Shown here piece by piece: positions 16,328-37,520 of a DNA stretch of 64,000 nucleotides. The notes under the pieces are model-generated. The model made no database searches and was not told the origin of the DNA. It worked only from the letters and a program-made list of their open reading frames with translations. The stretch covers positions 2,423,880-2,487,879 of the forward strand of contig NZ_AP028155.1 in NCBI RefSeq assembly GCF_033096445.1. The letters run 5' to 3'. Source of the stretch: Butyricimonas faecihominis. Lineage in GTDB: Bacteria > Bacteroidota > Bacteroidia > Bacteroidales > Marinifilaceae. The first letter of the stretch is position 1, and each line of letters begins with the position of its first letter. The translations under genes and the position numbers were made by a program.

Positions 16328-17144
16328 TACCTTGTTGACGAATACGATAAACCCATGTTGCAAGCGATCAATAATGACGAGTTGCAACGGCTGAAACCAT
16401 TTTACGGGGCTTTGAAAACCATGGACGGGGACATAAAATTTGCCTTAGGAATTCGGTAGCTACTAGTTCGAAACAGGCACTTTCTCCTACTTAGTCGAAT
16501 TATTGAAACAAAATCATTATAACCTCGAACAGATGTCTCATGAAGAGACAAATTCCGAGGTACTCAACAGTATTTATGCCGACGAAAGCCCTATCCCCGT
16601 GATTTATCAAAGCGGGTATCTCACGATTAAGGATTACGATCCCCGATTCGAGAATTATATTTTAGGATTTCCGAACCGAGAAGTAGAGGAGTGATTTATC
16701 AAATTCCTAATGCCCTTCTACACGAACGTGAACAAAGTGGAATCCCCGTTCGAGATACAACAATTCACACGAGAGATTGAATCCGGCCAACCGGATGCCT
16801 TCCTGCGTCGCCTGCAAAGCTTCTTTGCCGATACACCTTACGAGTTGATCCGGGATTTGGAAGTACACTATCAAAACGTACTTTTTATTGTTTTTCGTCT
16901 TGTAGGTTTCTATGTGAAAGCGGAATATCACACATCCGAGGGCCGGGTGGATCTCGTACTGCAAACCGACCGTTACATCTACGTGATGGAATTCAAACTG
17001 GAAGGTTCTGCCGAAGAAGCCTTACAACAAATCGAAGCGAAACATTACGCCCGACCATTTGAAGCGGATTCCCGACAGTTGTTCAAAATCGGGATTAACT
17101 TTGATAATAATACTCGGAATATCGAGAGGTGGATTGTGGAATAA
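16328..17144 (+). pseudogene. decayed AAA-ATPase / PD-(D/E)XK nuclease-like protein (DUF1703 type)
   Basis: Remnant of a family with an N-terminal AAA-ATPase and a C-terminal PD-(D/E)XK domain. In one frame from 16328, YLVDEYDKPMLQAINND (the Walker B region) runs to a TAG at about 16456. The rest resumes in another frame at 16467 (FETGTFSYLVELLKQ), with the intervening 100 or more residues absent. That frame has an in-frame TGA at 16692-16694, where the family usually has Gly (EVEE-stop-FIKFLMPFYT), then continues to a normal stop at 17144 (nuclease-like VYVMEFKLEG-type core). The Walker A half is missing. So: 5' loss, internal deletion with frame change and a nonsense codon. Members of this family are numerous in Bacteroidota. 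Confidence 0.8.
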
Positions 17145-17169
17145 CTTATCTATATTGGCTAAAAGAATT

Positions 17170-17201
17170 ACATCCCATTCGATCAATCTCGAATGGGATG
17201 T
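17170..17201 (-). terminator. 13-bp hairpin terminator at the end of locus A
   Basis: ACATCCCATTCGA and TCGAATGGGATGT form a perfect 13-bp stem with a 6-base loop. On the minus strand it is followed by AATTCTTTT. It lies 20 bases beyond the stop of the last locus A gene (17221) and may also stop readthrough from the pseudogene on the other strand. Confidence 0.8.
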
Positions 17202-17220
17202 GTTGAACAAATAGATTTAT

Positions 17221-19050
17221 TTATTGTACAATTAAACTTAGCTCTGCAGGCGGCATACACATTTGATCATTACAACTTTGGTATTCAATGACACAAGTCA
17301 CGTTCCCCGTTCCTAGAACTTCTTGAGTAAATATCGCCTCTTCTTCCACGACAACAGTTCTGGTACCATTATACGCCCGTCCTAAAGGTCGCTTTAACTC
17401 TCCCACCTTTTCAACTCCTTTCGGTAAAACAAAAGTTATTGTCGTGGGAAGATAAGGATCACTTTTATCCACTTGGGTATAAATTCGATATCCCGGATGG
17501 ATTTTCATCCGAATTGTAATCAACCGATTCCCATTCGACATTTTCTTTGTGAAAGCCTGTACTTTTACAGGTTCCTTTTCATCCGTATCCTCTTCTTTCA
17601 ACGTTTTTTCCTCGATGGGTTCTTTAATTGATTCCGTACACAAAACACGATAATCGTTTCCCGGCACATTTTTATCCCGAGTGTTTACTAAAAAGAACCA
17701 TCCTCCGGATTCCGTAAAAAATAAGCGAGATTTATTTGTTTCAAACCAAGTACGCCATTCTGCCGGAGTCTCGAAACGACAAAGCGTGTATCTTTTTAAC
17801 AAACGGTGTCCTTTCGCCACGTCTGTTCCCTCTTCCAACAAACGGATCGCCTCATCTAAAAGACGAATGTCATGATTAGAGATTCCCAGACTTCTTGCAT
17901 CCTCATCCAAAAGAAAAGAGACCCGGCCCGGTCGAGGCATAAAATAACCAGCATTATTCATATAATAATCCTTGTACGCTTTTTCATCCGTACCAAATGA
18001 AAAATACAATTCCGGGAACATACTTTTTAAATACTCTCCATAAGTCGATTCTTCTTTCCCGATCCTTTTTAATGTAGAAACCCGCTCTTCGTACGCAGCA
18101 CGAGTTGCCCGTAAAATCGTTGATTTTAAGTGTTTCTCGGTCACGATAAACGGATTGAACTTCCTAGCTATCGGGGCCTGTCCTGCAAATTGGGAAATAT
18201 AGACAATCGCGTTGGCAAATACTGATTTTGCCTCCTCCGTCATCTCTTCCGGTGAGGCTGAAAATCCCCAATGCAAGAAATTCCCATGTCGTCCGATGGC
18301 CACTTCCTCCAAGCCTTTTGCAGACACGCCACCTGAAATAAATTCTACATCAGGAGAATCCAGAAAACCGGCAGACTTGGAGATCATCCCCGGGCGTATG
18401 GCTTTCGTTGTATATCCTTCTTTTTGCACTCGCCACATCAAAATGGAATCAGGCACGACCTCTCCTTCGGATTTCGCAATAGATTTAGCACTTTCCGGTG
18501 TAGGTTTCATTACCATACTCATTTTAACGGGGAATGGTCCTTTAAACATAGGATGTTCTGTACGTATGTGATGAGCATCAGCATCCAAGCACAGACAGCA
18601 CCAGTCCGTTTTCAACCCAAGACGAGCACCAATTAAACTACTCAATTCTGCAATCAACAACATGGGTCGATCAAAATCCTGTGGTAAATATCCTTCTCTT
18701 TTCTCCCCGTAAAACCGTCCAAAGGGATCTTCTTGCATAGTCGGAGGAACTATCGGTTGAGGCAATCCGTCCATCACGGTAACATCGTAATCCTCAGACA
18801 ACACTGGCTGGTAGTCTTTCGCATCAATAGCCGTTACATATTTAAAATATTGTTTCAGCAGTTTTTCGAAGGCCACAGTCCGTTTTTTAGCCCCTTCCAA
18901 CAATAATACAGAATCCACCTTGCCTCTGTTTATATTAGCGTACACGTCCGAAGATCCTCCAACATAAAGCACTTTCAGTTTACTTTTCCTTATCCCTGCC
19001 TGCAAATCAAAACATAACAGAAATAACAAGCCTAATAGAATTATTTTCAT
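17221..19050 (-). CDS. exported protein with ThuA-like region and C-terminal DsbD-alpha-like domain
   Basis: A 609-residue protein with a signal peptide (to about residue 18). Residues about 24-300 (LKVLYVGGSSDVYANI, DYDVTVMDG, and GNFLHWGFSASPEEM followed by a conserved-looking IVYISQF) resemble a ThuA/class I amidotransferase-like fold, tentatively. An acidic linker at about 490-510 leads to a beta-rich C-terminal domain ending YQSCNDQMCMPP (Cys593, Cys598), the redox-active motif of DsbD N-terminal (alpha) domains. So it probably takes part in periplasmic thiol exchange. It sits 9 bases after a TlpA-like gene, the last of locus A. Confidence 0.6.
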   Translation of the reverse strand: MKIILLGLLFLLCFDLQAGIRKSKLKVLYVGGSSDVYANINRGKVDSVLLLEGAKKRTVAFEKLLKQYFKYVTAIDAKDYQPVLSEDYDVTVMDGLPQPIVPPTMQEDPFGRFYGEKREGYLPQDFDRPMLLIAELSSLIGARLGLKTDWCCLCLDADAHHIRTEHPMFKGPFPVKMSMVMKPTPESAKSIAKSEGEVVPDSILMWRVQKEGYTTKAIRPGMISKSAGFLDSPDVEFISGGVSAKGLEEVAIGRHGNFLHWGFSASPEEMTEEAKSVFANAIVYISQFAGQAPIARKFNPFIVTEKHLKSTILRATRAAYEERVSTLKRIGKEESTYGEYLKSMFPELYFSFGTDEKAYKDYYMNNAGYFMPRPGRVSFLLDEDARSLGISNHDIRLLDEAIRLLEEGTDVAKGHRLLKRYTLCRFETPAEWRTWFETNKSRLFFTESGGWFFLVNTRDKNVPGNDYRVLCTESIKEPIEEKTLKEEDTDEKEPVKVQAFTKKMSNGNRLITIRMKIHPGYRIYTQVDKSDPYLPTTITFVLPKGVEKVGELKRPLGRAYNGTRTVVVEEEAIFTQEVLGTGNVTCVIEYQSCNDQMCMPPAELSLIVQ

Positions 19051-19059
19051 ATCCGAATT

Positions 19060-20265
19060 TTATTTATTCCGAATCAACTCTTCAATTTTATTTTTTAAAG
19101 CCTGATCACGAAGATTATCTTCAACGACAATACCATTTTCATCCACCAAAATAAACATCGGGATCGCCCTACCGTCAAACTTTTCTGCAAAAACATTTTC
19201 CGTATCAATTAAACAAGGCCAAGGTAATTGTTCTTCGTCAAGAGCTTTCAACCAATCAGCATTACTCTTATCGATTGAAATACTGATTATCTCCAATCCT
19301 TGATCAACAAGGTCCTGATACATTTTCTTCAAGAATGGAATCGACTTGCGACAAGGTCCACACCACGAAGCCCAAAAATCAATCAATACGCATTTCTTTC
19401 CCTTACTCAATTCTTTCATTGAATATACCTTTTCATTCCGATCAGGTAAAGAAAATTCCGGAACTGACTTTCCTTTCAAAGTCTTGGGAAATATTTGTTT
19501 CTTCAAAGCCTGACCGTAAAAACTATTCTTCGCCTCTTCCGAAAAACCATTGAATAGTTCCTTAGCTTCTGTATCATTTGACGAGAAATAAGCCCTGTTA
19601 TTCAGCAACAAAAGAGGTCCCCAAAATGAATCTCCGTTTGCCGCCACGCTATCATGAATGACTTTTTCAATCGTTTGGAAAGCCTCTCTTTCAGCTTTCA
19701 CCAGATTCTTATAATCATCTGTCTGCATAAAATCAGTTATCACTTTTCGATCTCCATTTTTCCTTAATTCCGATATTTTCTTTATCGTCCCTGCATGTGC
19801 CTCCCGATAATCGACAAACATTTGATCTAACTTTTCACGAAAAGCCATCTTCTCTCTGAAGATTTGATCCGTCACAGAGCCTTTCAATTGAACATCTTTC
19901 AGTTCCACGTATGGCCTTCCTTCTTGTTGTTCCCCTCTCACCGCAGAAAAAGTAATATCACTATTTTCCAGCATAAACCCGTAAGTACCCCGTACTCCTG
20001 TCGGTTCTTCGATTGTCAACATATAATAACGAGGTTCCACCAATTTTCCTACAAATGTGAATTTCCCATCCTGTACAGTTGTTTCCATCTCCTTTTTCTC
20101 ATCTTGATGCGTGGCTGCCAATGTCAGGCTAACTTTCGTATTGTCGGCAAAACCATAGAGCATTCCGGTGATTTTATAGTTGTCAGATTTCTCACATCCT
20201 CCTCCAATAAATAACAGGATAAGAACAACAGATATATTAACATACTTAAAACACAAATATCTCAT
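19060..20265 (-). CDS. TlpA-like thioredoxin lipoprotein with DUF4369-type N-terminus
   Basis: A 401-residue lipoprotein (lipobox GGGC, Cys24). Residues about 30-130 form a beta-rich DUF4369-like domain (YKITGMLYGFADNTKVSLTL). A helical spacer follows, then a thioredoxin domain from about 265 with CGPC at 302-305 (FWASWCGPCRKS) and the cis-proline loop AIPMF (Pro369). Predicted periplasmic thiol reductase or oxidoreductase, membrane-attached. It lies between the second TlpA-like gene and the DsbD-alpha-like protein, 27 and 9 bases away, so the three are very likely cotranscribed. Substrate unknown. Confidence 0.88.
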   Translation of the reverse strand: MRYLCFKYVNISVVLILLFIGGGCEKSDNYKITGMLYGFADNTKVSLTLAATHQDEKKEMETTVQDGKFTFVGKLVEPRYYMLTIEEPTGVRGTYGFMLENSDITFSAVRGEQQEGRPYVELKDVQLKGSVTDQIFREKMAFREKLDQMFVDYREAHAGTIKKISELRKNGDRKVITDFMQTDDYKNLVKAEREAFQTIEKVIHDSVAANGDSFWGPLLLLNNRAYFSSNDTEAKELFNGFSEEAKNSFYGQALKKQIFPKTLKGKSVPEFSLPDRNEKVYSMKELSKGKKCVLIDFWASWCGPCRKSIPFLKKMYQDLVDQGLEIISISIDKSNADWLKALDEEQLPWPCLIDTENVFAEKFDGRAIPMFILVDENGIVVEDNLRDQALKNKIEELIRNK

Positions 20266-20292
20266 AACTAATATTTTAAAACACTATTTCTT

Positions 20293-21732
20293 TTAATTCT
20301 TTTTTTCACGTGCCATCTCTATCATTTGAGATAATTCGGCCACGATCTCATCATCACTCCCTGCAGCCCCAGTCACGTGAAACCGGATTTGTCCTTGTGG
20401 ATCGATCACAAATTTTGAAGGAATCCCGGTTACGCCATAACTCTTCACGACTTCATTCGCTTTCGTTTTCGGGTCTTTTAAATCCATCAACAAACGAAAC
20501 GAATAATCGTTATCTTTCAAATATTTCACGGCCTCTTCAGTCGCATTGTTCTCTTTTTCCCACGTGTGGATGAACAAAAATACCACATTCGGATCATCTC
20601 GATATTTCTCTACGGTCTTTTGCATCGCTGGGAACGAACGCTTACACGGGCCGCACCAAGTAGCCCAAAAATCCAACACGACAACTTTTCCACGCAAGTC
20701 TGCAAGTTTTACAACCTTTCCCTCCGCATCAGGCAATGTGAAATCCGGGGCAGACCGGGAAATCATACTCTTAATGATTTCCTCGTTTCGTTGATCAGCA
20801 CGAGCTTTCCGCAATCTTCCGATATAAGTATCACACCCTTTCTCACTACCGTTTAGTTGTATATAAAGTTCCTCTATTTTATGGTTCACTTCTTCGTCTG
20901 CCTGTCCCGCTTTGATCATATCCGCTAAACACAAAAATGATTCCAACGGTCGTCCGGCTTCTGCCATTAACAAAGCGTAAGATTTATCACGTCTATGGGG
21001 AGGCATTTTTTCCATAGTCGCTAACGCCTCTGAATGCAAACCCGCCTCGTAACAAGCTGTTGCATAATTAGACAAATACGAGGGATAACCTCTCATCGCG
21101 ATGGCAAAACTTGCCTTATCACCCTCTTTTTGCAATTGTTCGCAGTTATCCACGGCAAGCTTGTAAAACATAAGAGCATGTTCCATATCCCCGCATTTAC
21201 TTAAAGCACCCGCAACCACAGAACACGGTTCTCCCAACCATCCCTTCGTAACGATCCTATCAATATACTCCTTTGCCTTTTGCCAATTACCATTTCTCGC
21301 GTATGTTCCCGCCACGCTACTCCGGGCATAATCATACACGATACTTTCTCCCAATTTTTCCGGAGGAAAACGTTTCATCCATTTTTTGAATAATACCTCT
21401 TGTTTCTCCGGATTCATTTCCGAGTAGATATAGGTGTTTAAATAGCGATTTCTGGCTAAAACCCCATGAGGGAATTTTTTTACAATCACATTTTGTATTG
21501 AATCAAATGTAGCCTCCATTCCCAAATAATAGAAACACTGTGCCACGTCCGAATAGACACTTTCCTCTTTTCCTTTAAGCTTATAAAGAAGTTCCGATTT
21601 AAAACGAGCCAACGTCTCGCCTCCGGCTTTTTGAGCCTCTAACGCTTTTTTCTGATTTTCATTCATCGGCCGCTGAGCCATAGCACACAAAGCCAAAACG
21701 ATATATAATATCGTCAATACAATACTTTTCAT
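20293..21732 (-). CDS. TlpA-like thioredoxin protein with helical-repeat N-terminus
   Basis: A 479-residue exported protein, signal peptide cleaved near residue 20 (AMAQ). Residues about 25-310 are alpha-helical repeats with a TPR-like pattern (e.g. CGDMEHALMFYKLAVDNCEQL). The C-terminal thioredoxin domain (about 325-475) has CGPC at 360-363 (FWATWCGPCKRS) and a cis-Pro loop (VTGIPSKFVID). No lipobox seen, so periplasmic or OM-attached by other means. The start is the Met at 21732, 66 bases after the PKD-like gene's stop. A role in reducing imported cargo is inferred from locus context only. Confidence 0.88.
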   Translation of the reverse strand: MKSIVLTILYIVLALCAMAQRPMNENQKKALEAQKAGGETLARFKSELLYKLKGKEESVYSDVAQCFYYLGMEATFDSIQNVIVKKFPHGVLARNRYLNTYIYSEMNPEKQEVLFKKWMKRFPPEKLGESIVYDYARSSVAGTYARNGNWQKAKEYIDRIVTKGWLGEPCSVVAGALSKCGDMEHALMFYKLAVDNCEQLQKEGDKASFAIAMRGYPSYLSNYATACYEAGLHSEALATMEKMPPHRRDKSYALLMAEAGRPLESFLCLADMIKAGQADEEVNHKIEELYIQLNGSEKGCDTYIGRLRKARADQRNEEIIKSMISRSAPDFTLPDAEGKVVKLADLRGKVVVLDFWATWCGPCKRSFPAMQKTVEKYRDDPNVVFLFIHTWEKENNATEEAVKYLKDNDYSFRLLMDLKDPKTKANEVVKSYGVTGIPSKFVIDPQGQIRFHVTGAAGSDDEIVAELSQMIEMAREKKN

Positions 21733-21798
21733 AACAATACGAATTAAATTTATGAATGAAGGCGCCTAAGAAATTCTTAGGCAACCTTCAATAGCTGA

Positions 21799-23358
21799 TT
21801 ATTGAGCTATAAAATCAAAATCGGCAATACGACCGTCAAATTCATACACGGCAACCGGCTCCGCACCGAGTACCCCACTGGAAATATCCGACTCGATCAC
21901 ATAAATTTTACCTTTACCCGACGAGTTGTAAGTTGCCACAAGCAAATACTTATCCTTTGTACTATTTTCCAGATTCAAACCTGCATTCTTGAAAAATTCG
22001 ATGCGTGTAATCACTTCCCCGGCAGCAGGAGTCCAAACTGCAGTTGCACTTGAAGTTGCGTCATCCACATTGTAATTCATTCGATATACGTTAGCGTCAG
22101 TAGCATAAAAAACAACCGGACCACGTTCCCCCGTCGCAAAACTATTGGCCAAAGCGATGTCCGGACAAGCACTTATATCCATCGCACACTTAGAAGTATA
22201 GGCACTGGCTGTCGATTTATCCGCAACAAATACATACATATAACGTTTGCCGTCGTCAACGGGATTTTTGAAGAAACAATAATTTATCTGATTGTCACTT
22301 TGCCAATAACCGTTTGACCAATGAATCAAATCCTTTCCCACGTTACCAAAATCAAAATGTGCAGCCGAATTAATAACCGGGTCAATTTCAGCACTCCACA
22401 TTTTGGAGAAAATAAACCGACGATGCAGACCATCGTAAAACAACGAATTCACTTGCCAAGTTGTATTTCCGGCCACTGCATAATAATCATCATTTTTCAT
22501 GGCCATCGGCGTTAACTGTAAACCTCCCGAATTCGCTTTATAAGCCACACCGTTATTGATAAAGAAAGTATTATAGTTACGAACAAAAATTCCGTTCAGA
22601 TCTTTAACAGCAGGAATCTTCCCGGCAAAAAGTCCATCAAACTCATCTGCAATACTCATATCTATTGACGAAAGACGAACCACGTCCTCCCCGGATGTCA
22701 TATATAAATAATAAAGATCATAAGAAGCATATATTGCACTCACCAATTCTTTTGGTTCTCCGGTAAGCGGGCGGGTGGGATTTACCGTAGAATAAGTATT
22801 ACGATTATAAGAGGTCTCTGTTAACGAACCATTAAATAGCGGAGAGTACACAATATCAATATCACTTCTCCCTGCATTTTTATATAATACAGCTAACCCG
22901 GAACCAATCACACCCTCTACCGTCAATCGCCAATCCATTGTGGTTTTCAATCCACTCGTCGTATCAGTAGCTGTAAATACCAAATAATACGCACCCGGTA
23001 TTGCCTCGATCTTCACGTCCAATTCTCTCTCGGTCGAAATCGTGTAATCCGGATAGTCATCACGTGTATAATCATGTGAATAACCGGTTCCGTATGACGA
23101 AGGCCCTATATATGGCTCATCCGATTTGTAGAGTTCCCATTTATACTTGAGTACACTTTTATCCCCATCATAAATAAACTTGGGTGTCAACGCGAAAGAA
23201 CTAAATTGCTTGATCGTATACGTATGTTGTATCCCCACCGTATCCACGTAAAAATTTCCGAGGTCGGCATAATTATAATTTCCCTCGTCATCCAAACATG
23301 CCGTTAGTCCGAAGACAAACAACAGAATAATAACTTTTATCGATGTATATTTTTTCAT
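21799..23358 (-). CDS. PKD-like family surface lipoprotein
   Basis: Start chosen at 23358: the codon follows GGAGGAG by 8 bases on the minus strand, one of few good Shine-Dalgarno sites here; an upstream Met (23376) would overlap it. 519 residues, lipobox LTAC (Cys21). Residues about 40-160 form a PKD-like beta sandwich (KFIYDGDKSVLKYKWELYKS), as in lipoproteins that accompany SusCD. The rest is beta-strand rich and could be a propeller-like fold (repeated YVF/FYDGL segments), which I cannot confirm. Probably a SusE-like surface lipoprotein of locus A. It overlaps nothing and starts 20 bases after the DUF4843 gene. Confidence 0.8.
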   Translation of the reverse strand: MKKYTSIKVIILLFVFGLTACLDDEGNYNYADLGNFYVDTVGIQHTYTIKQFSSFALTPKFIYDGDKSVLKYKWELYKSDEPYIGPSSYGTGYSHDYTRDDYPDYTISTERELDVKIEAIPGAYYLVFTATDTTSGLKTTMDWRLTVEGVIGSGLAVLYKNAGRSDIDIVYSPLFNGSLTETSYNRNTYSTVNPTRPLTGEPKELVSAIYASYDLYYLYMTSGEDVVRLSSIDMSIADEFDGLFAGKIPAVKDLNGIFVRNYNTFFINNGVAYKANSGGLQLTPMAMKNDDYYAVAGNTTWQVNSLFYDGLHRRFIFSKMWSAEIDPVINSAAHFDFGNVGKDLIHWSNGYWQSDNQINYCFFKNPVDDGKRYMYVFVADKSTASAYTSKCAMDISACPDIALANSFATGERGPVVFYATDANVYRMNYNVDDATSSATAVWTPAAGEVITRIEFFKNAGLNLENSTKDKYLLVATYNSSGKGKIYVIESDISSGVLGAEPVAVYEFDGRIADFDFIAQ

Positions 23359-23378
23359 AATAACTCCTCCTATCATGA

Positions 23379-24134
23379 TTAATTCGTTAAACCCGTTCCG
23401 ATTTCTAGCGGATCCCCGTTATCATTCATATAAGGTTCATCGTGAGTAGCATTGTACTCGTTCAATAAATCGATCAATTCTGCAATAAAAGCATATAACT
23501 TATTATCATCATCCGAACGACCGGAATTCGGATCAATCATGCCCAACTCGAACAAATCCACATCACCGTAATAATCCAAGATAAATTTATAACGTGCTTG
23601 AGTGAAAGGACCTGCAACGTTCGTAAAACCAGACTGCCACCAAGCCGGTTGAATCAAATAATCACACCAAACAAATTTATAAACAGCATTTTCTTCCGGT
23701 CCTTCCTCAAAATTCTCATTTGCCTTTACCCGAACAGTCAACGAAGCTACTTGTTCAGAAAGGTCCATACCCTCCACCTTACGTTTTACCGTGACAGGCA
23801 ACGTCGCATAATAAGCTCCAGCAGGGATCTCCATATCTCCCAACGTGTAATCGTTGGAAGAAACATTCGTTCCGTCCTCCAACACTTCTAAAACAAAAGT
23901 ACGCGCTCTATCAGAAACCACCCCGGTTACATAAACCATCAGATTCAAATCATAAGATTGTACCGCATCATCATATTTTTTGAACGAGAAGATAACGGAG
24001 TCTGCCGTTGCATTCTGTTCTTTATCACCTCCAATGTAAATTGACGGATTATCGCTGAAAGTATTTTTCTCATTCTCGCAGGCGAACAGGGTCATCAATA
24101 TCGCACCAAGAATTACATATTTAAATATTTTCAT
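23379..24134 (-). CDS. DUF4843 family surface lipoprotein
   Basis: 251 residues with a lipobox at LFAC (Cys19). The pattern NPSIYIGGDKE, then DSVIFSFKKYD and VCDYLIQPAWW matches the DUF4843 family, which is found next to susD in many Bacteroidota loci. The start codon overlaps the susD stop by 4 bases, so it is translationally coupled to it. Likely an outer-membrane surface lipoprotein in the SusCD complex; ligand unknown. Confidence 0.85.
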   Translation of the reverse strand: MKIFKYVILGAILMTLFACENEKNTFSDNPSIYIGGDKEQNATADSVIFSFKKYDDAVQSYDLNLMVYVTGVVSDRARTFVLEVLEDGTNVSSNDYTLGDMEIPAGAYYATLPVTVKRKVEGMDLSEQVASLTVRVKANENFEEGPEENAVYKFVWCDYLIQPAWWQSGFTNVAGPFTQARYKFILDYYGDVDLFELGMIDPNSGRSDDDNKLYAFIAELIDLLNEYNATHDEPYMNDNGDPLEIGTGLTN

Positions 24135-25618
24135 AACTCATTTTCTTTATTTCTGTTTCCAAATTCGATCTCTTCTTCCGGCATTGGCCATACATATTTG
24201 GTCTGATCCATAGCCATCGAATATGAATATCCATAACTTAAATAAGGAATACTTTTCTTATTCAGCCTTTTATAATAATACCACATGAGTCCTTCGCCAT
24301 AAAACTCCCGACGATACTCGTTTAAAATCTCATCCAACACCTGTGTTTCAGTTGAGGTTGCTAAAAATTCTTCCGTAATTCCCCGGTGAGAACGTATTTC
24401 ATTAATAATCTCAGCACCTTCAGTGGTAGGATTACATTCAGCCACAATCAGTTTCATTTCTGGGAACCGGATGATCGGCATCAAATTTTTGAACTCGGCA
24501 GGCATATCCTCATATTGCCAAAACTTATTCGGCAAACGATAAATAGAGGAAGAATTAAGTCCCAAATTCTCACTCCATCCGTAACGAGTATTCCAACCGC
24601 GCCAGTCTGTCGTATGCGGATAAATTATTGCCGCATCCCGATCCATCACTGAAAATGAATACCCGGTAGCCCATGCCATTATTGTTGAGAACGTATATTC
24701 AATATTCTTTTCCATCTCCTCAACCCTTAATCTGAAAATATGCTCCGGAGTAAATGTATGATCCCGCTTTTCCTCGGCTATTGCAATGTCATCAATCGAA
24801 GTCCACTTACAACCACTATCCGAAATAACCTCTTTTGCTTTTAATGCCGCATTAACCTTATCCCCCTTCCACATATACACCCTTGCCATCGTCGCCACCA
24901 CGGCATAATAATTAAATCTAAACGTACGATCAAGCAAATAACCATTATCATCGGAAGTCGTGATCGTTCGTCCGGTACAAAGCGGATCCGCCACTTTCAA
25001 AAGAGTTGCAGCATCTTCCAAATCTTTCAATATAAGATCTATCGTCTTGCTGACAGTCTGTACCTCCGTGATATTGTAATCAAAATGATCCACGTAAGGA
25101 ATCCCTTGGGCTTCAGGATCATCTGCATACGCAGGAGCAAAAAGCCTCAGCAAATCAAAATGAAGAAATGCCCTCAAACCCAAAGCCTCTCCATAAATAA
25201 CATTATAATTGTCTTTTGAAAACATTGCCGGATCTGCCTCTTGAATATTACCAATGATATTATTCACGTTAGCTATTGTCGTGTAAGTCTTTTGCCAAAC
25301 ATCGTTAATCAATGATTTAGCCTTCGTACTCGTATAACTATACGTACTGAGAGGATATTGAGTAGCCGACGTCCCGACACGGGAATAAATTTTTGCCATG
25401 GCATCCAATGACACCGTCATGTTTAACCCGTACATTGATTTCTGTACCATCAACGTGTAAACACCCCAAAGAGCATCTTTATAACCGGCTTCATCTTTCA
25501 GTAACTCCGATGACTCAACCTGAGTTTTAGGTTTCACATCAAGCCAATCATCGCATGAAATAGAGAAAAGCGAGATGATGATAAAAGAAAGAATAATTTT
25601 TATTGTTTTCATTGTCAT
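24131..25618 (-). CDS. RagB/SusD-family lipoprotein of locus A
   Basis: 495 residues, lipobox SISC (about Cys22), then DDWLDVKPKTQVESSELL, the SusD N-terminal pattern. The central helical TPR-like region and the C-terminal RREFYGEGLMWYYYKRLN with the final VWPMPEEEI are typical of the family. It forms the lid on the SusC barrel and binds the substrate. A Met two codons later is an equally good start. 10 bases after susC. Confidence 0.95.
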   Translation of the reverse strand: MTMKTIKIILSFIIISLFSISCDDWLDVKPKTQVESSELLKDEAGYKDALWGVYTLMVQKSMYGLNMTVSLDAMAKIYSRVGTSATQYPLSTYSYTSTKAKSLINDVWQKTYTTIANVNNIIGNIQEADPAMFSKDNYNVIYGEALGLRAFLHFDLLRLFAPAYADDPEAQGIPYVDHFDYNITEVQTVSKTIDLILKDLEDAATLLKVADPLCTGRTITTSDDNGYLLDRTFRFNYYAVVATMARVYMWKGDKVNAALKAKEVISDSGCKWTSIDDIAIAEEKRDHTFTPEHIFRLRVEEMEKNIEYTFSTIMAWATGYSFSVMDRDAAIIYPHTTDWRGWNTRYGWSENLGLNSSSIYRLPNKFWQYEDMPAEFKNLMPIIRFPEMKLIVAECNPTTEGAEIINEIRSHRGITEEFLATSTETQVLDEILNEYRREFYGEGLMWYYYKRLNKKSIPYLSYGYSYSMAMDQTKYVWPMPEEEIEFGNRNKENEL

Positions 25619-25628
25619 GCGGTTTTAA

Positions 25629-28600
25629 TTAAAACATTACCTGAAGCGAAAACGAGAACGTACGTGCAAACGGATAGGAAGTTCCTCGTTCTATTTTCAC
25701 GGACTGCATTCGTCCGAAATCAGCCATATCAAACGAAAGTCGAAGACGTTCCATCCCGATACGTTTAATCGCTTCAATTCTCGTCAACTCGTAAGAAAGA
25801 TTAAGAGATGAAATCACAAACTGATCATCATCCTCGACAAAGCGGGAAGTTGCTTGAGTCGTCTCTTCATTCTTTATATTTTTATACAAACTCACGTCTC
25901 CCTTCTTTACCCAACGATCAGAAAAGATTCGACGATCAACATTGTTTTCCAAGTTCGCATTTTCTACCTTATCAACCAATGTCTGGTTATACACTTGTCC
26001 TCCGAACTGATAACGGGCAGTCACATTCAAACTAATTCCCTTGTAATCAAAATTAAATCCAAGATTCCCTTGAAGTGTCGGTTCTGTATCCCCACAAATC
26101 TGAAGATTATCGGAATCCCATTCATACGTGCGTGTTCCCTCCGATGTTATAAAAAGTTCATCTCCACACGCGGGATCGATTCCCATCGATTTCACCGCCC
26201 AAATCGCTGACATAGACTGCCCTTCCTCATAACGAGTAATCGGTTTATTGGAAACAGAGGACGTTTGGGTATCGTTATACGTCTGCAAAAAGTTAGAAAT
26301 CTGTTTGATCGTATTTTTATTATGTGATGCGGCCACAAATATATTCAGGAAAGCATCCTTCGACTGCTCCTGCCAAACCCGGTATTTAAGACTGATTTCA
26401 TAACCAATATTCTCCACTTTTCCCAAATTCTCTTTATATGAAGTAAATCCAGTAGAAGAAGGAATCGTTACATCGGTTAATAAATCGTCTGTAACTGTCG
26501 AATAGTAATCAAAACGCCCCTGTAACCTCCCGTTAAACACACCAAAATCAACCCCGAGATTCCGATCATATTTTCTTTGCCACTTCAAACGAGAATTAGG
26601 CATCCCAGCCAAGACAGCTCCGATATTACCGTTGTAAGCACTGGACGTGTAGTAGGAATAAGTTGCAATCGACTGGTACGAATTGAAATTTTGTGAACCC
26701 GTGTATCCCAAAGAACCACGAAGTTTCAACTGTGAAAGGATACCTGAATCCGTCAATGAATGAAAGAATTTTTCTTGATGCAGATTCCATCCTAAACCTA
26801 ACGACCAGAATGTACCCCAACGATTATCACTACCGAATTGAGATGAACCGGACAAACGAAACGACGCATCAAAAAGATATCGATTATCGTAAGAGTAGTT
26901 CGCAGCACCGACAAAACCAATATCACGAGTAGTAGATTCGGAGGCTGAGGGACGTCCATCTTTATAATACTGTCGTGCAAAAGCTAAATTATCAAGTTTA
27001 TCATTAGAAAATCCTTCTGCTTTAAAGGTCACCGACTCCGATGTAGAATTATTCAAACTCCATCCCACGTTAGCAAAAATCATGTGTCTTTCACCTAGCT
27101 GCACGGAATAGTTTGCCAGCACGTCTGCTGACACCGCAAAAGATTTTCCGTCACCATAGATATAGCTACCGCGTCGATAAATCTTTTCTTCATCCTCTTC
27201 CCAACCGATAAAATCCGTGTGTGATGCAGGATGAAATATTTCACTACCCGTATCGCTCTTGTTCAAACTCACCCGTCCGGTAAATTTAAATCCTCGTGCA
27301 GGCGTCCATTCCACGTAGAAATTATTTACAAACTGCGTGTATTCGGAAAAATCCTTCGTGTTGATCGTGGCGTTCCATACAGGATTATAAACATTCGTAT
27401 TTTGATATGTACCAAGACGTTCTCCAAGTATTTTTATAACGTTACCATCATCATCCCAACAACGATAATAAGGATTCATCGAGGTATATTCACTAAATGA
27501 ACCATACGGAGAATTCTCTCCCTTATTATAGGTTACTGAAAAACTATTCTTTAGCATGATATTATTATACCGGTATGAAAGTGTCACACCTCCAGAAAAC
27601 GTGTTCCGATTAGAACCTTTCATCACACCAACCACATTATTATATGAAACATCCAGACCATACCGGAAAAAATCATCCCCTCCTTCAAGGTAGATAGCAT
27701 GTTTCTGCCCGATACCATTTCGTAACGGTATCGACTTCCAATCGGTATTAACCCCGGCAATTACCTCTTTCATCAGTCCGTTATAGACCTGATCCCATGA
27801 ATATTGTTCAACCGGATTTCCCCATATAGACGAACCGTTATCCCTGAAATAGGTATATTTCCCTGCATTGAATTCTACTTCCAACTTTTCTGCTGCATTA
27901 CAAAGATCATAACTGGTCAAATCTGGAAGTTGAACGTTCATTGTGCCCGTGTAACTCACTCTCAATTTTCCCTTTTCCGGCTGTAACGTTTCAATAACTA
28001 CCACCCCATTGGCAGCTTTCGATCCGTATATGGCCTTGGCCGCAGCATCTTTCAAAAGTGTCACGCTAGCCACACGATTCATATCCATATCCATCACATA
28101 AGTTAGCGATTGCTCAAAACCGTCAACAATAAATAACGGATTATTAGGATTCGATGAATATTCTCCTTTCAAATCTGGGAAACCGGACTGCCCACGCATC
28201 GTGATCTCGTATTGCTGATTCGGATTCGAACCGTTCGCAAGACTTTCTGCGATACGAAAGGAGGGATCAAGATTCTTGATACTCTGCAATACATTCGTAT
28301 TTCCTACCCGACGAATTTCCTCCCGAGAAAACGATTGGGCTGCACCGGTAAAACTATTCGCTTTGCGCGTAAACATACCGGTAACCACGACCTCATCAAC
28401 TTCTGTAACATCTTCTTCCATCACAATCCGTAAAGTATCTCTCGTGTTGGCTGTAAAATTTACTTTTTGCGATTTATAACCAACAAAAGAAAACTCTAAA
28501 GTTCCCGCATTCGCAGGAATATCCGGCAATTGAAACCATCCGTCCATGTTAGTTGCAGTCCCGATAGAAGTTCCAACTAACTTAACCGTCACGCCCGGCA

Positions 28601-29030
28601 TAGGTTGTTTTTTCGTGTCTGATACAAAACCTCTAAGTTGAAGTCCCTTTTGATTCTGCGGGATTTCAGTTTTTGGGGCTATCACGATAGTCTTACCGAC
28701 AAATTGATAGGTAAAATGTTCTCCAAGAACCAAACGCAAAACGTCTTCCACATTCACTGTTAAATTTGGGAGCCGAACCACCTTAGCCACGTCAATCTCA
28801 TCATCGCTGTAGAAAATGTCGTATTTCAACTGCGTGGTTATCGTACTAAACACTTGATCAATCGTCAGACTCTTCTTCTCGAAAGCCACACTCTCGGCCT
28901 GACCATAAGCGGTTGCATGCACTTGCATCAACCCGACTAGAATCCAAAAACAAATCAGCTTCATAAGCAATAACATTTTTTTTATTCTACTTTTCCAGTA
29001 AAATAAACCTACATCCTCATTTTTTTCCAT
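25629..29030 (-). CDS. SusC/RagA-family TonB-dependent transporter with STN domain, locus A
   Basis: 1133 residues, outer-membrane barrel that imports a ligand using TonB. The N-terminus has a hydrophobic export segment (about 17-44, ATAYGQ), an STN domain (about 47-120, signal transduction to FecR), a CarboxypepD_reg-like domain (about 130-215, GFVSDTKKQPMPGVTV), then the plug (VDEVVVTGMF) and a barrel ending FARTFSFSLQVMF with a terminal Phe. Alternative starts lie among the first 24 residues. The STN plus a nearby sigma/FecR pair indicates transcriptional signalling from the surface. Ligand unknown; no digestive enzyme is encoded in the locus. Confidence 0.95.
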   Translation of the reverse strand: MEKNEDVGLFYWKSRIKKMLLLMKLICFWILVGLMQVHATAYGQAESVAFEKKSLTIDQVFSTITTQLKYDIFYSDDEIDVAKVVRLPNLTVNVEDVLRLVLGEHFTYQFVGKTIVIAPKTEIPQNQKGLQLRGFVSDTKKQPMPGVTVKLVGTSIGTATNMDGWFQLPDIPANAGTLEFSFVGYKSQKVNFTANTRDTLRIVMEEDVTEVDEVVVTGMFTRKANSFTGAAQSFSREEIRRVGNTNVLQSIKNLDPSFRIAESLANGSNPNQQYEITMRGQSGFPDLKGEYSSNPNNPLFIVDGFEQSLTYVMDMDMNRVASVTLLKDAAAKAIYGSKAANGVVVIETLQPEKGKLRVSYTGTMNVQLPDLTSYDLCNAAEKLEVEFNAGKYTYFRDNGSSIWGNPVEQYSWDQVYNGLMKEVIAGVNTDWKSIPLRNGIGQKHAIYLEGGDDFFRYGLDVSYNNVVGVMKGSNRNTFSGGVTLSYRYNNIMLKNSFSVTYNKGENSPYGSFSEYTSMNPYYRCWDDDGNVIKILGERLGTYQNTNVYNPVWNATINTKDFSEYTQFVNNFYVEWTPARGFKFTGRVSLNKSDTGSEIFHPASHTDFIGWEEDEEKIYRRGSYIYGDGKSFAVSADVLANYSVQLGERHMIFANVGWSLNNSTSESVTFKAEGFSNDKLDNLAFARQYYKDGRPSASESTTRDIGFVGAANYSYDNRYLFDASFRLSGSSQFGSDNRWGTFWSLGLGWNLHQEKFFHSLTDSGILSQLKLRGSLGYTGSQNFNSYQSIATYSYYTSSAYNGNIGAVLAGMPNSRLKWQRKYDRNLGVDFGVFNGRLQGRFDYYSTVTDDLLTDVTIPSSTGFTSYKENLGKVENIGYEISLKYRVWQEQSKDAFLNIFVAASHNKNTIKQISNFLQTYNDTQTSSVSNKPITRYEEGQSMSAIWAVKSMGIDPACGDELFITSEGTRTYEWDSDNLQICGDTEPTLQGNLGFNFDYKGISLNVTARYQFGGQVYNQTLVDKVENANLENNVDRRIFSDRWVKKGDVSLYKNIKNEETTQATSRFVEDDDQFVISSLNLSYELTRIEAIKRIGMERLRLSFDMADFGRMQSVKIERGTSYPFARTFSFSLQVMF

Positions 29031-29077
29031 AAATTTGTAGTTACATTAAATATTTATTAATCCATACGGGTTAAGAT

Positions 29078-29106
29078 AAGAACGGGAGCCGCAATCTCTC
29101 GTTCTT
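29078..29106 (-). promoter_or_regulatory. RNA hairpin between fecR and susC of locus A
   Basis: AAGAACGGGAG and CTCTCGTTCTT form an 11-bp stem (one G-U pair) with a 7-base loop. It lies 16 bases past the fecR stop and about 48 bases before susC. No T run follows on the minus strand, so it is not a classical terminator. Loci B and C have comparable hairpins at the same place. Confidence 0.65.
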
Positions 29107-29122
29107 TTGATCTCGTATATGT

Positions 29123-30250
29123 TTATCTATTTTTCAAACTTGCCGTTACCACATTTCCTTTCACGTTAAATTGTACATCTGAAGTCATCTGAAGAAATTT
29201 AAACATTTCTTCTAAAGGTTGGTACTTGTTAACCACTCCCGAAAAACGTCGAGTTTTAATCTCCTCGTTCATGTAAAACATTTTAAAATCATACCACCGC
29301 TCTAATTTCTCGACCAATTCTTCAAACGTGTATGCTTTAAAATAGAATTTCCCATCTCGCCAAGACGTGTACAATTCCGGCAAAACTTCTCTCAGTCCAG
29401 CTTTTCCGGTTCTTACATCAATCTGGTATTGCTCGTTCGGTTTCAGTAAAACTTCTTTTTCCTCTTGATTAATCATCACGGAACCTTCAACCAAAGTAGT
29501 CTGCCAAAAACGATCATTCGAATACGCACACACGTTGAAAGCTGTCCCTAATACCCGAACTTTTCCCACCTCCGTGTGTACATAGAAAGGTCTGTTCGCA
29601 TCTTTTTTCACCTCGAAATAAGCCTCTCCTTCCAAAAATACCTCTCGTCGATTGGAAGTAAATTTCTCCGGAAAACGTAAAGAAGATTCAGAATTAACCC
29701 AAACCACCGTTCCATCTGGTAATTCTAAAGAATACTCCCCACCTTTCGGAACAATCAAGGTATTAAAAACCAAAGAATCTTCCATTCCTGTCTTATTTAC
29801 ATGATAGGAAACTTTCCCCGTCACTGTGTCATTCACGATCTCCACTCCCGCATTTCCCGAGGAATAAACTCCTTGATGCTCGTTTAATGCTAACCGTACT
29901 CCCGTTCCCAAACGCAATTCTGCCTGTAACCTACCGGGTTTTATCACTTCAGCACGTACAATTTTTTCTTCCGGCTCCGGACGAGTAACGACATAAACCA
30001 AAGAAACACCCAATACAACCATGGCCACATATTTACAAACCGACAACATCCATTTTCTACCCCTTTTCGGTTGTATTTTCCGCCACGCGTTATCCACGTC
30101 ATAACGATGGGGGTCCAAGCCGTGCATGGCCTGCCGGATTTCGAATTGTTGTTGCAATATCTTTTTTTCCTCCTGAGATAGCTCTCCTTCCTCCGGCCTT
30201 CGCCACAAAGAAGTCAAGCGCTCCCAATTATTTTCCAGAAAATCGTTCAT
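29123..30250 (-). CDS. FecR-family anti-sigma factor, locus A
   Basis: 375 residues with N-in topology: a cytoplasmic region of about 65 residues that would hold the sigma factor, one membrane helix (about 70-88, VAMVVLGVSLVYVV), and a periplasmic FecR domain (YSLELPDGTVVWVNSESSLRFPEKF, then VFLEGEAYFEV). The C-terminal domain (SDVQFNVKGNVV) is of the DUF4974 type that meets the STN domain of SusC. It is transcribed after the sigma gene (132 bases apart). Confidence 0.93.
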   Translation of the reverse strand: MNDFLENNWERLTSLWRRPEEGELSQEEKKILQQQFEIRQAMHGLDPHRYDVDNAWRKIQPKRGRKWMLSVCKYVAMVVLGVSLVYVVTRPEPEEKIVRAEVIKPGRLQAELRLGTGVRLALNEHQGVYSSGNAGVEIVNDTVTGKVSYHVNKTGMEDSLVFNTLIVPKGGEYSLELPDGTVVWVNSESSLRFPEKFTSNRREVFLEGEAYFEVKKDANRPFYVHTEVGKVRVLGTAFNVCAYSNDRFWQTTLVEGSVMINQEEKEVLLKPNEQYQIDVRTGKAGLREVLPELYTSWRDGKFYFKAYTFEELVEKLERWYDFKMFYMNEEIKTRRFSGVVNKYQPLEEMFKFLQMTSDVQFNVKGNVVTASLKNR

Positions 30251-30382
30251 TTCGTATCTATTTTCCTATACGACAATCATCCTTCAAAAGAAGGTGAGTT
30301 AAAAATGAACTTTTTTCAAGAAAAATATCACACATTTAAAAACGATCTGATTATCAAGACCTATATATTCAATTCATGTCAT

Positions 30383-30949
30383 CTATCTTTGGCCTTGTAA
30401 AGCAATAAAAAGCAATACGGAAGTGTGTTCTCCACCTACCCTAGCTCGAATATTCCGATACGCTTTCATCACGTGAGACTTCACGGTATTCACCGATATC
30501 CCCAATTCATCCGCAATCTCCTTGTATTTTTTCCCGTCTAAACAACTCATCGTGAACACCGTCCGGCATTGCGCAGGTAAAGTTTGCAGAATCTCTTTTA
30601 TTTGCTCCACACGTTGCATCTCCTCTTCCGAGTAATCAGAATTTTGTAGATCTTCAATAAACGCCATCAATGACGCTCCATGTTTTCGCTCTATCATTTT
30701 ATGTTTCAATACATTTAAAGCCCGGAAACGTACCGAAGTAAAAAGATAAGATTTCACGGACTCCTGCACCCGAATCTCCTGCCGACTTTTCCAGAGATAC
30801 GTGAAAAGATCCTGCACGACGTCCTCTGCCTCCGCCTGATCACCAAGAATCATGACTGCATAATCGCACAATGGCATATAGAACATCCGAAACACTTGTT
30901 CAAATGCCCCTTGGTCTCCATTCTTTATTTTAGAGAAAACTTCTTCCAT
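30383..30949 (-). CDS. ECF RNA polymerase sigma factor, locus A
   Basis: Start placed at 30949 (MEEVFSKIKNGDQGAFEQVF), giving 188 residues; upstream Mets at 30988 and 30970 lie at or before a likely -7 box (TAAGTTTG, 30983-30976), so they would not be transcribed. Region 2 has AEDVVQDLFTYLWKSR. Region 4 (LPAQCRTVFTMSCLDGKKYKEIADELGISVNTVKSHVMKA; quoted in part by its key KYKEIADELGIS) is a classic HTH. Presumed to direct transcription of locus A when FecR releases it. Unlike loci B and C, it is on the same strand as fecR. Confidence 0.93.
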   Translation of the reverse strand: MEEVFSKIKNGDQGAFEQVFRMFYMPLCDYAVMILGDQAEAEDVVQDLFTYLWKSRQEIRVQESVKSYLFTSVRFRALNVLKHKMIERKHGASLMAFIEDLQNSDYSEEEMQRVEQIKEILQTLPAQCRTVFTMSCLDGKKYKEIADELGISVNTVKSHVMKAYRNIRARVGGEHTSVLLFIALQGQR

Positions 30950-31036
30950 GATACAATTCTCACCACTCATGGAGACAAACTTACACAAAAATCCGGATTC
31001 TCGAACGATCAGATGGAAAAAATAATATCACGAAAA

Positions 31037-31072
31037 ATGATCGGGCAGAGCCATTCGCTCCCACCCGATCAT
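31037..31072 (-). terminator. intrinsic terminator of locus B
   Basis: On the minus strand ATGATCGGG, an 18-base loop and CCCGATCAT form a 9-bp stem followed by TTTTTCG and later T runs. It lies about 20 bases beyond the last locus B gene (stop at 31091). Confidence 0.75.
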
Positions 31073-31633: not shown

Positions 31634-31644
31634 CTTCTAAATTT

Positions 31645-32304: not shown

Positions 32305-32320
32305 GATTCAACAAATTAAT

Positions 32321-33886: not shown

Positions 33887-33888
33887 AA

Positions 33889-37437: not shown

Positions 37438-37465
37438 AACTTTGTTTATGATTTTATTTAACATT

Positions 37466-37520
37466 ACATCTGCTGTCAACAGATGTTTTCAAATCTTGGG
37501 GGAAGCTGTCAAATTCCCCC
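37466..37520 (-). promoter_or_regulatory. pair of hairpins with the same loop between fecR and susC of locus B
   Basis: Hairpin 1: GGGGGAA (37498-37504) pairs with TTCCCCC (37514-37520). Hairpin 2: ACATCTG (37466-37472) pairs with CAGATGT (37480-37486). The two loops hold GCTGTCAAA and CTGTCAA. Hairpin 1 is seven bases beyond the fecR stop. No T run follows. Comparable structures occur in loci A and C. Confidence 0.65.

Follow-up and report, generated by a model that had tools for sequence, protein, structure and literature searches.

Pairs of the outer-membrane transporter SusC and the lipoprotein SusD are usually interpreted as glycan systems and, to our knowledge, the cargo of most of them has not been established. 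The operon described here shares with polysaccharide utilization loci its sigma/FecR regulation, its SusC and SusD, and its extra surface lipoproteins, and differs from them in that a redox module replaces the glycosidase or peptidase among its nine genes. The peptide importers RagAB and BT2261-2264 resemble it as well in combining SusC and SusD with surface lipoproteins; in the available excerpts of PMC7782687, oligopeptide ligands are mentioned for both and, unlike in the operon here, no TlpA or DsbD-alpha partner is mentioned. Searches of the open-licence PMC literature found no paper that names both DsbD and SusD, and none in which SusC, thiol-disulfide and polysaccharide utilization loci all occur. 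In the excerpts returned, mentions of DUF4843 apparently do not concern SusCD, the one paper on SusD plus TlpA does not connect its TlpA and Trx genes with SusCD, a paper on S24-7 places thioredoxins under oxidative stress rather than with SusCD, a review of TonB names no redox partner, and nothing else bears on a SusCD-redox pairing.

Organization of the operon

The window, a stretch of 64,000 nucleotides from Butyricimonas faecihominis, contains nine open reading frames in a single minus-strand block (17221-30988), in which ORF calls and Pfam names agree with the gene set recognized in an earlier note on this DNA. The order is that of an ECF sigma-70 factor (Sig70_bacteroi1; 30383..30988; TIGR02985, 158.5 bits, cut-off 126.4), for which an ATG near 30949, chosen by eye, is the more likely start, a FecR-type anti-sigma factor (29123..30250; FecR and FecR_C above the Pfam cut-off), SusC, SusD, two further lipoproteins, two TlpA-like thioredoxins and, finally, a protein here termed G17 that ends in a DsbD-alpha tail; the gaps from SusC through the last gene are 10, -4, 2, 66, 27 and 9 bases. 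The SusC/RagA TonB-dependent transporter (25629..29030; CarbopepD_reg_2) scores 597 bits with TIGR04056 (cut-off 368), and the N-terminal STN domain that the earlier note assigned to it is weak (E 0.0062; 16.8 bits, below the 28.4-bit cut-off). Together with the adjoining SusD/RagB lipoprotein (24131..25618; SusD-like_3 and SusD_RagB above the Pfam cut-off), 10 bases away, it makes up a SusCD/RagAB pair with the putative function of a TonB-driven ligand importer. The lipoproteins that follow, with the Pfam domains DUF4843 (23379..24134) and PKD_2 (21799..23376), are probably both exposed at the cell surface, judging from the acidic residues after their lipoboxes; sequence searches of solved structures returned no relative of either at E <= 1.

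Both thioredoxins carry AhpC-TSA/Redoxin domains above the Pfam cut-off with a CGPC motif, in line with their initial reading as TlpA-like proteins. The first (20293..21732; AhpC-TSA, 83 bits; C360-C363) has a helical, TPR-like N-terminal part, and the second (19060..20265; Redoxin, 79 bits; C302-C305) a DUF4369 domain (37.4 bits) behind a GGGC lipobox, read by eye, that makes it a probable lipoprotein. They share domain and motif with the TlpA/ResA/DsbE oxidoreductases and differ from these in their long extra N-terminal modules and in scores that lie below the NCBIfam cut-offs, far below in the case of ResA (ResA, 87.3 and 82.3 bits, cut-off 170; TlpA, 66.6 and 47.1 bits, cut-off 230). As the earlier note suggested from their different N-terminal modules, the two may act in turn. 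The CGPC motifs and the DsbD-alpha tail suggest reduction, a direction assigned by analogy.

A terminator (17170..17201, minus strand; -21.8 kcal/mol over 17160-17206) marks the 3' end of the operon. The earlier note listed this one alone; two further strong minus-strand hairpins were found. One (31037..31072; -22.8 kcal/mol, z -4.1 over 31018-31072) is terminator-like, has a T-run and would close the upstream operon; the block conserved in another genome of the genus stops at 31026. The other (21757..21790; -20.8 kcal/mol, z -5.4 over 21745-21800), between the PKD_2 and first TlpA genes, lacks a good T-run; it is a possible attenuator or processing site and could make the redox genes less strongly expressed than susCD. 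Gaps able to form a hairpin were also seen, without a shuffle control, at the equivalent place of some further loci in the genome. A generic terminator scan returned 14 sites, about as many as in shuffled sequence (14.4). Promoter-like sites numbered 63 (46.1 expected, sd 6.8), and the Bacteroides-type promoter motif matched once in the window (2.0 expected) and nowhere within the locus.

All nine genes are present in that other genome of the genus, at 94.6-99.8% amino-acid identity, which excludes chance as the origin of the set. The dN/dS ratio between the two genomes is 0.015-0.19 for eight of the nine genes; for the second TlpA it is 0.56, but with a dS of merely 0.021.

Coupling of SusCD loci to thioredoxins

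The complete genome encodes 42 DUF4843 genes, and the view of the locus as singular had to be abandoned in the face of the many DUF4843-thioredoxin loci among them. A thioredoxin-cluster gene is present in 24 of the 41 tabulated DUF4843 loci, contrary to the absence from most related loci that would have spoken against the proposed coupling, and is lacking in the other 17. An AhpC/TSA match lies within 7 kb downstream of 20 of the 42 DUF4843 genes, where 2000 rotations gave 2.0 on average and never more than 9. Of the 86 AhpC/TSA matches, 62 fall at most 9 kb downstream of a SusD, compared with an average of 8.6 and a highest count of 23 under the null (1000 runs). CxxC occurs somewhere in the sequence of 71 of the 79 thioredoxin-cluster genes of the genome. 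That SusCD is coupled to thiol-redox genes is well borne out by this census and by the wider collection of G17 loci described below, and the coupling reaches further than the earlier note supposed. Pfam names no degradative enzyme (no glycosidase, lyase or peptidase) among the nine operon proteins, as first noted, and this is not the exceptional trait it had seemed, hydrolase-free DUF4843 loci being common in the genome.

Thioredoxin presence follows the phylogeny of the transporter: on a tree of 40 SusC proteins of DUF4843 loci (without that of L066, which is too short, and with one of the near-identical copies L048 and L075), it changes 7 times against 13.3 expected, and none of 500 shuffles was as low. 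This tree was used instead of one of 56 SusC proteins, some of whose rows had been chosen for carrying TlpA, which biases the TlpA fraction. The clustering could also mirror common descent of whole loci.

These data bear on the idea that the thioredoxins and G17 serve maintenance, reducing, isomerising or repairing cysteines in the locus's own envelope proteins rather than in a cargo. TlpA/ResA-like proteins commonly serve as maturation factors, SusC, SusD and the PKD_2 protein contain 5, 4 and 4 cysteines, and an AhpC/TSA gene follows SusD both with DUF4843 (20 of 41) and without it (26 of 70). The cysteines of these surface proteins are few, however, and none forms a CxxC; thioredoxin presence varies among SusC clades of equal architecture, and peptidases adjoin the thioredoxins in some loci. 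We regard maintenance as unlikely, albeit the strongest of the competing explanations.

Several neighbors of the thioredoxins were recorded in the same genome: in one locus (L036) an S9 peptidase gene comes after TlpA, another has TlpA beside a subtilase (L083), and an RND efflux pair follows the DUF4843-TlpA locus L053, which can be read for or against a metal cargo. Two DUF4843 siblings encode a beta-galactosidase, an MGH1-like hydrolase and an M28 peptidase (L049), and a fucosidase and an M13 peptidase (L055).

Given the glycosidases in these last two loci, the clade of transporters does not serve peptides exclusively. They also favor the possibility that the operon imports a glycopeptide or glycan and that its redox proteins are generic accessories gained by a proliferating SusCD family, as does the distribution of DUF4843, matched in 6 of the 119 genomes drawn from the order, of which only two, both of the same family as B. 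faecihominis, list at least 27 each. Yet hydrolase loci and thioredoxin loci are mostly distinct and group by transporter phylogeny, L036 being an overlap, and DUF4843 is found in only 2 of 79 G17 loci. This explanation, too, appears improbable, slightly more so than maintenance.

The G17 protein family

The last protein of the operon (17221..19050) combines an N-terminal domain, a helical middle part and a C-terminal DsbD_N (DsbD-alpha) domain (residues 498-603; 17242..17559; 28 bits, cut-off 25) with the cysteine pair C593/C598. The tail had been recognized at the outset; what had been missed is that the first ~290 residues form a separate, unnamed domain, which matches no Pfam or NCBIfam family. 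A separate AlphaFold model of this domain (residues 20-295; 18166..18993) has a pTM of 0.92, and Foldseek relates it, as a distant match, to the class I glutamine amidotransferase-like superfamily, with E-values from 2.8e-4 (8hx6) to 5e-3 (1t0b), TMq of ~0.34-0.42, and probabilities of 0.91-0.94 for the ThuA-like 1t0b, PuuD (6vtv) and GGP1 (9k7i) and up to 1.00 for other members; the top rank went to a GH42 enzyme (E 1.6e-4). The ThuA family of Pfam is not among the 14 families matched by any of 68 N-domains (E <= 1). By sequence, solved structures gave nothing for the single G17 protein at E <= 10, a G17 profile retrieved DsbD-alpha, a profile of the N-domain retrieved nothing meaningful, and a library of viral structures gave no match at E <= 0.001. 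G17 is the element that is new here, a fusion of an amidotransferase-like domain to DsbD-alpha in a family without a name.

The predicted fold is shared with class I amidotransferases, from which G17 differs in the presumed nucleophile, residues 134-135, placed by eye without coordinates: these are mainly A/G and E/S/D, with no Cys among the most frequent letters, in an alignment of 79 rows (the window protein and 78 proteins from 77 of 79 loci, with L182 and L215 omitted and L157 present twice). This speaks against catalysis without being decisive, given the assignment by eye, and the reading of the domain as a gamma-glutamyl hydrolase, like some of its structural neighbors, was set aside because of it. 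A CxC motif is found in the strand that follows the presumed nucleophile. CxC, K147, R254 and H255 are invariant in 17 G17 sequences found by whole-protein search; in the wider set, whose members were recruited with patterns that include portions of CxC and HGNF, invariance of these motifs is partly selected.

Sixteen of the 17 family members match DsbD_N, the remaining one having no tail, and both DsbD-alpha cysteines are present in 78 of the 79 rows of the alignment, all except a truncated copy. The domain and its cysteines are thus like those of DsbD and ScsB, whereas the membrane and thioredoxin-gamma domains of these proteins are absent (no DsbD_TM or thioredoxin family is matched in the 17 members) and alpha is fused behind the amidotransferase-like domain. 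The likeness to ScsB, a copper-tolerance protein, raises the question of whether the operon takes up a metal or metalloid bound in a thiol complex, to be handled by the CxC and the DsbD-alpha tail. In fold, the tail matches ScsB (6c29; E 6.9e-5), but the sequence match is not significant (E 2.4); the invariant CxC would suit metal binding, and the operon has a FecI/FecR-type regulator. Nevertheless, ECF/FecR pairs accompany SusCD loci widely, including ones that are not iron loci, no metal gene was found among the subset of neighbors scanned with Pfam, and extended versions of the locus carry peptidases; a metal cargo is, in our estimate, the least probable of the explanations considered.

The distribution of G17 is patchy: full-length copies occur in five of six genomes of the genus (including that of B. 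faecihominis), in 6 of 29 other genomes of the family and in none of 24 outside it. SusC and SusD lie on the same strand as G17 in all 16 loci from relatives (the contig-end fragment L135 excluded), in an unbroken run in 15. The complete order from susC to the DsbD-alpha gene, whose conservation had been proposed as a test, is rare, being found among these 16 only in L125; L141 has the same order, but its last protein has no DsbD tail. A wider set, mostly labelled Bacteroidota, comprises the best-scoring 79 of 170 relatives, hence the closest ones and not a random sample, and seven of its loci seem to duplicate ones from the relatives (L127/L193, L128/L179, L129/L208, L130/L165, L132/L159, L133/L202 and L134/L195). 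Here SusC/SusD lie within 10 kb on the same strand in 77 of 79 loci (76 by gene calls, L216 by tblastn), and L221 has no SusCD within 10 kb of G17. G17 directly follows SusD in 42 loci, and the run includes a TlpA in 41, with CxxC somewhere in the sequence of 98 of the 99 TlpA genes. As 38 G17 loci and the 17 DUF4843 loci counted above lack a TlpA or thioredoxin, this partner is not obligatory. In 42 of the 79 loci the run extends to the locus end; genes in fetched loci were called with a simple caller from the first start codon, which overlooks genes in some contigs and makes overlaps upper bounds.

Proposed import and reduction of disulfide-bonded cargo

In three loci of the same genus (L137, L138 and L140), the order is SusC, SusD, lipoprotein, two Met-zincins, G17, TlpA and S9 peptidase, the peptidases being named by Pfam on L138, to whose last gene those of L137 and L140 are 77% and 72% identical. 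In five other loci (L182, L194, L197, L200 and L201), a gene for a DsbD-like protein lies upstream of SusC and in its orientation; the L194 copy, the one scanned, matches DsbD_TM and Thioredoxin_7 in Pfam, and the other four are 55-99.9% identical. The nearness of G17 to Met-zincins and an S9 peptidase and the membrane-DsbD-like genes upstream of SusC lead us to favor the import of disulfide-bonded peptides. Among the three cargoes initially suggested, a disulfide-containing peptide has gained ground from sibling loci that join thioredoxins with peptidases, and nothing specific has emerged for a thiol-metal complex. Speaking against this proposal, none of the nine operon proteins is itself a peptidase.

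We infer, as a proposition about evenly balanced between right and wrong, that the operon imports peptides or proteins whose disulfide bonds need opening before use, with reduction following in the periplasm. SusC, SusD and the DUF4843 and PKD_2 lipoproteins would capture and import the cargo, and the two CGPC proteins and G17 may form a periplasmic reducing relay, in which a membrane DsbD would be the electron donor for either TlpA or the DsbD-alpha tail of G17. The amidotransferase-like domain with its CxC might bind the cargo or join in thiol exchange, and the reduced cargo would be digested by peptidases encoded elsewhere in the genome or, in some relatives, in the same operon. More speculatively, and on balance doubtful, G17 may represent a new type of periplasmic disulfide reductase, an amidotransferase-like cargo binder with CxC in place of the catalytic cysteine, powered in cis by DsbD-alpha, and may supply the reduction step in a class of SusCD systems, present across Bacteroidota, for importing, reducing and digesting disulfide-bonded peptides.

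Being one soluble protein, open to expression and assay, G17 makes the question directly testable. If the proposal holds for a large class of SusCD pairs, an unnamed protein family would be added to periplasmic redox biology, and a reduce-and-digest route for disulfide-bonded proteins, possibly mucin domains, host defence peptides or plant storage proteins, would help explain why so many SusCD loci of this genome are accompanied by thioredoxins.

Gene content and conservation of the locus

The minus-strand locus extends from 30988 to 17221 and consists of nine open reading frames which, as named by Pfam and NCBIfam, encode in order an ECF sigma factor, FecR, SusC, SusD, a DUF4843 protein, a PKD_2 protein, two AhpC-TSA/Redoxin proteins that each contain CGPC, and a last protein in which a DsbD_N domain is C-terminal. 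The set described in the earlier note, with two CGPC thioredoxin-like proteins and a DsbD_N tail, is thus borne out, as is the absence of a degradative enzyme: under this naming there is no hydrolase among the nine proteins. The transporter, described there as an STN-containing SusC, is indeed named as SusC, but its STN domain scores under the cut-off. The gaps are, as claimed, mostly short (10, -4, 2, 66, 27 and 9 bases from SusC to the last gene), and a hairpin with a T-run is present at the locus end (17170-17201). This proposed terminator is not the only hairpin, however, as another with a T-run lies upstream of the locus (31037-31072) and a strong one without a good T-run lies in the gap between the PKD gene and the first TlpA gene (21757-21790).

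The block 16447-31026 has 97.5% nucleotide identity in one other member of the genus (genome G001), and this match stops at 31026, adjoining the upstream hairpin. The dN/dS values range from 0.015 to 0.19 in eight of the nine genes, the second TlpA gene having too few silent changes to judge. Directly upstream of the locus is a second SusCD-like set (31091-37479), where two small proteins (31091-31633 and 31645-32304) have no Pfam family; since this set is absent beside the orthologous block in G001, it has been gained or lost in one of the two genomes. A 144-residue open reading frame at 16710-17144 matches the PD-(D/E)XK nuclease family PF08011 over nearly the whole profile and presumably corresponds to the end part of a larger ATPase-nuclease protein, of which it is possibly a remnant. 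The locus also adjoins a gene for a fimbrillin protein (12601-14196; Fimbrillin_C, FimA), a probable part of a fimbrial gene set.

SusCD loci with thioredoxins in Butyricimonas faecihominis

The complete genome of 4.85 Mb contains 42 DUF4843, 38 PKD_2, 86 AhpC-TSA, 111 SusD-like_3 and four DsbD_N matches, with SusD upstream of DUF4843 in 41 of 42 cases and PKD_2 downstream in 38. An AhpC-TSA match follows within 7 kb downstream for 20 of the 42 DUF4843 matches, whereas 2000 rotations gave a mean of 2.0 (sd 1.6, maximum 9). The association extends beyond DUF4843, as 26 of 70 SusD matches without it also have AhpC-TSA within 9 kb, and 62 of the 86 AhpC-TSA matches follow a SusD at a distance of up to 9 kb (1000 rotations: mean 8.6, sd 4.8, maximum 23). 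When genes were clustered by BLAST, a thioredoxin-cluster gene was found in 24 of the 41 tabulated DUF4843 loci (L070 being left out), so that the locus is one member of a large set of SusCD loci with thioredoxins in this genome. Its exact gene order from susC to the DsbD-alpha fusion, the conservation of which the earlier note proposed to test, is uncommon: among 16 loci of relatives it is complete in L125 alone, and it is present in L141 with a last protein without the tail.

About half of the 17 DUF4843 loci without thioredoxin have nothing recognisable past PKD; the contents of others include ABC exporter genes, S9 peptidases, a Met-zincin, glycosidases with M28 or M13 peptidases, a sugar kinase and a MatE gene. 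Five loci (L040, L049, L055, L057 and L058), none of which has a thioredoxin-cluster gene, carry an ABC ATPase cluster gene at the position that thioredoxin takes in other DUF4843 loci, and four of them add an ABC_transp_aux cluster gene (Pfam was run on the L040 copies), which we take to be GldG-like. One genome carries a DUF4843 SusCD locus in two near-identical versions, L048 and L075 (end branches of 0.001-0.002 on a tree of 56 SusC proteins), the L075 copy being followed by a MatE-cluster gene. In two sibling loci a lipoprotein-like family of about 300 residues is encoded between PKD and TlpA (L045:7734-8657, L047:7681-8682); the L045 copy has no Pfam match.

When 40 SusC proteins from DUF4843 loci were placed on a tree, thioredoxin presence required 7 changes, compared with a mean of 13.3 after shuffling, and none of 500 shuffles was as low. 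The SusC of the locus falls in a supported group of five, all with thioredoxin. Such clustering would be expected from a link between cargo and redox module, but shared ancestry of entire loci would likewise produce it.

The G17 family

The last protein (17221-19050) defines a family that we call G17. A confident AlphaFold2 model (mean pLDDT 91.8, pTM 0.78) predicts an alpha/beta N-domain followed by a helical middle part and a tail of beta-strands. By fold, this tail resembles DsbD-alpha structures as well as ScsB, and its cysteine pair is intact in 78 of 79 aligned rows, the exception being truncated. The N-domain, which has no Pfam or NCBIfam family, was also modeled alone (pLDDT 93.5, pTM 0.92), with structural matches in the class I amidotransferase-like superfamily (aminodeoxychorismate synthase, GMP synthetase, PuuD, GGP1 and ThuA-like proteins) at E-values of 2.8e-4 to 5e-3; the top-ranked structural match is a GH42 enzyme (E 1.6e-4). 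At the presumed nucleophile position, placed by eye, the aligned sequences have no common cysteine. All 79 rows share C152 and C154, which form a CxC, and K147, D149, W150, R254 and H255, some of these residues being contained in the recruiting patterns; in 17 sequences retrieved independently of the patterns, there is likewise no variation at the CxC, K147, R254 and H255. The CxC may take part in thiol exchange. A signal peptide read by eye suggests that G17 is periplasmic, and a lipobox-like motif in 16 of the 79 rows suggests that anchoring may differ among members.

The whole protein was searched in 59 genomes (its own, five of the same genus, 29 of the same family and 24 of other families of the order). 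Twenty match at E-values up to 0.001, several in the DsbD tail only; ten other genomes have a match that covers most of the protein, namely four of the five in the genus and six of the 29 in the rest of the family, and none of the 24 from other families of the order has one. All 16 relatives' loci inspected (including the tail-less L141) have SusC and SusD on the G17 strand, 15 of them in an unbroken run. G17 comes directly after SusD in nine, after DUF4843-PKD in four and after two Met-zincins in three, and TlpA is in the same run in ten.

A wider set comprised the best 79 loci of 170 relatives, out of 243 pattern matches in bacterial and archaeal genomes. Its labels include Bacteroides, Prevotella, Phocaeicola, Odoribacter, Alistipes, Muribaculaceae, Pedobacter and Sphingobacterium, among others, and a few that, as labelled, are outside the phylum (Paenibacillus, Opitutaceae MAGs). 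SusC or SusD lies no more than 10 kb from G17, on its strand, in 77 of the 79 (76 by gene calls, L216 by tblastn); for comparison, a same-strand SusD is about that near for 22% of random points in the B. faecihominis genome. Of the remaining two, L215 starts at the edge of its contig, which leaves L221 as a true exception. G17 directly follows SusD in 42 loci, TlpA in 14 and FecR in nine; TlpA is in its run in 41 and, by distance, at most 5 kb away in 38 and at most 10 kb away in 49. As DUF4843 is near G17 in just two of the 79, the unit that is conserved consists of SusCD and G17, frequently joined by TlpA, and the DUF4843 set is not part of it. In L127, whose contig equals that of L193 in length, genes for subunit I and, probably, subunit II of cytochrome bd oxidase (L127:5652-8356) lie just upstream of sigma-FecR-SusCD-G17, and genes similar to these by BLAST clustering lie near G17 in L165.

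Redox partners, peptidases and a candidate cargo

SusCD, TlpA, DsbD-alpha and the amidotransferase fold are each already known, and in the parts of the open-licence literature covered we found no paper on the pairing of SusCD with DsbD or TlpA redox genes, one that names both TlpA and SusD apparently not being about it; within that literature, therefore, the combination of SusCD with a redox module and the G17 family are new. A DsbD-like protein is encoded upstream of SusC, SusD, G17 and TlpA in L182 (2154-4217), and upstream of small TlpA, SusC, SusD, G17 and TlpA genes in L194 (2317-4335), L197, L200 and L201 (2250-4271). The L194 copy, on which Pfam was run, has DsbD_TM and Thioredoxin_7 and shares 55 to 99.9% identity with the other four. 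Such proteins may feed electrons into a predicted relay, whose direction CGPC and DsbD-alpha would, by analogy, make reductive. As a tail, DsbD-alpha seems portable, since in two SusCD-DUF4843-PKD-TlpA loci of the same genus DsbD_N follows a different N-terminal part made of FG-GAP repeats (L142:11993-15882, L143:13799-15604).

Peptidases recur beside these genes. In L137, L138 and L140, G17 and TlpA are flanked by two Met-zincins and a gene which in L138 encodes an S9 peptidase of the DPP-IV type, the L137 and L140 copies being 72 to 77% identical to it. Within the B. faecihominis genome, L036 has the order SusC-SusD-DUF4843-PKD-TlpA-S9 peptidase, and L083 has a subtilase among TlpA-cluster genes. 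Peptide ligands are described for the SusCD pairs RagAB and Bt2261-64 (PMC7782687). The DsbD-like genes and the Met-zincin, S9 and subtilase neighbours give grounds for a model in which the cargo would be a peptide: disulfide-bonded peptides would be imported, reduced and then digested.
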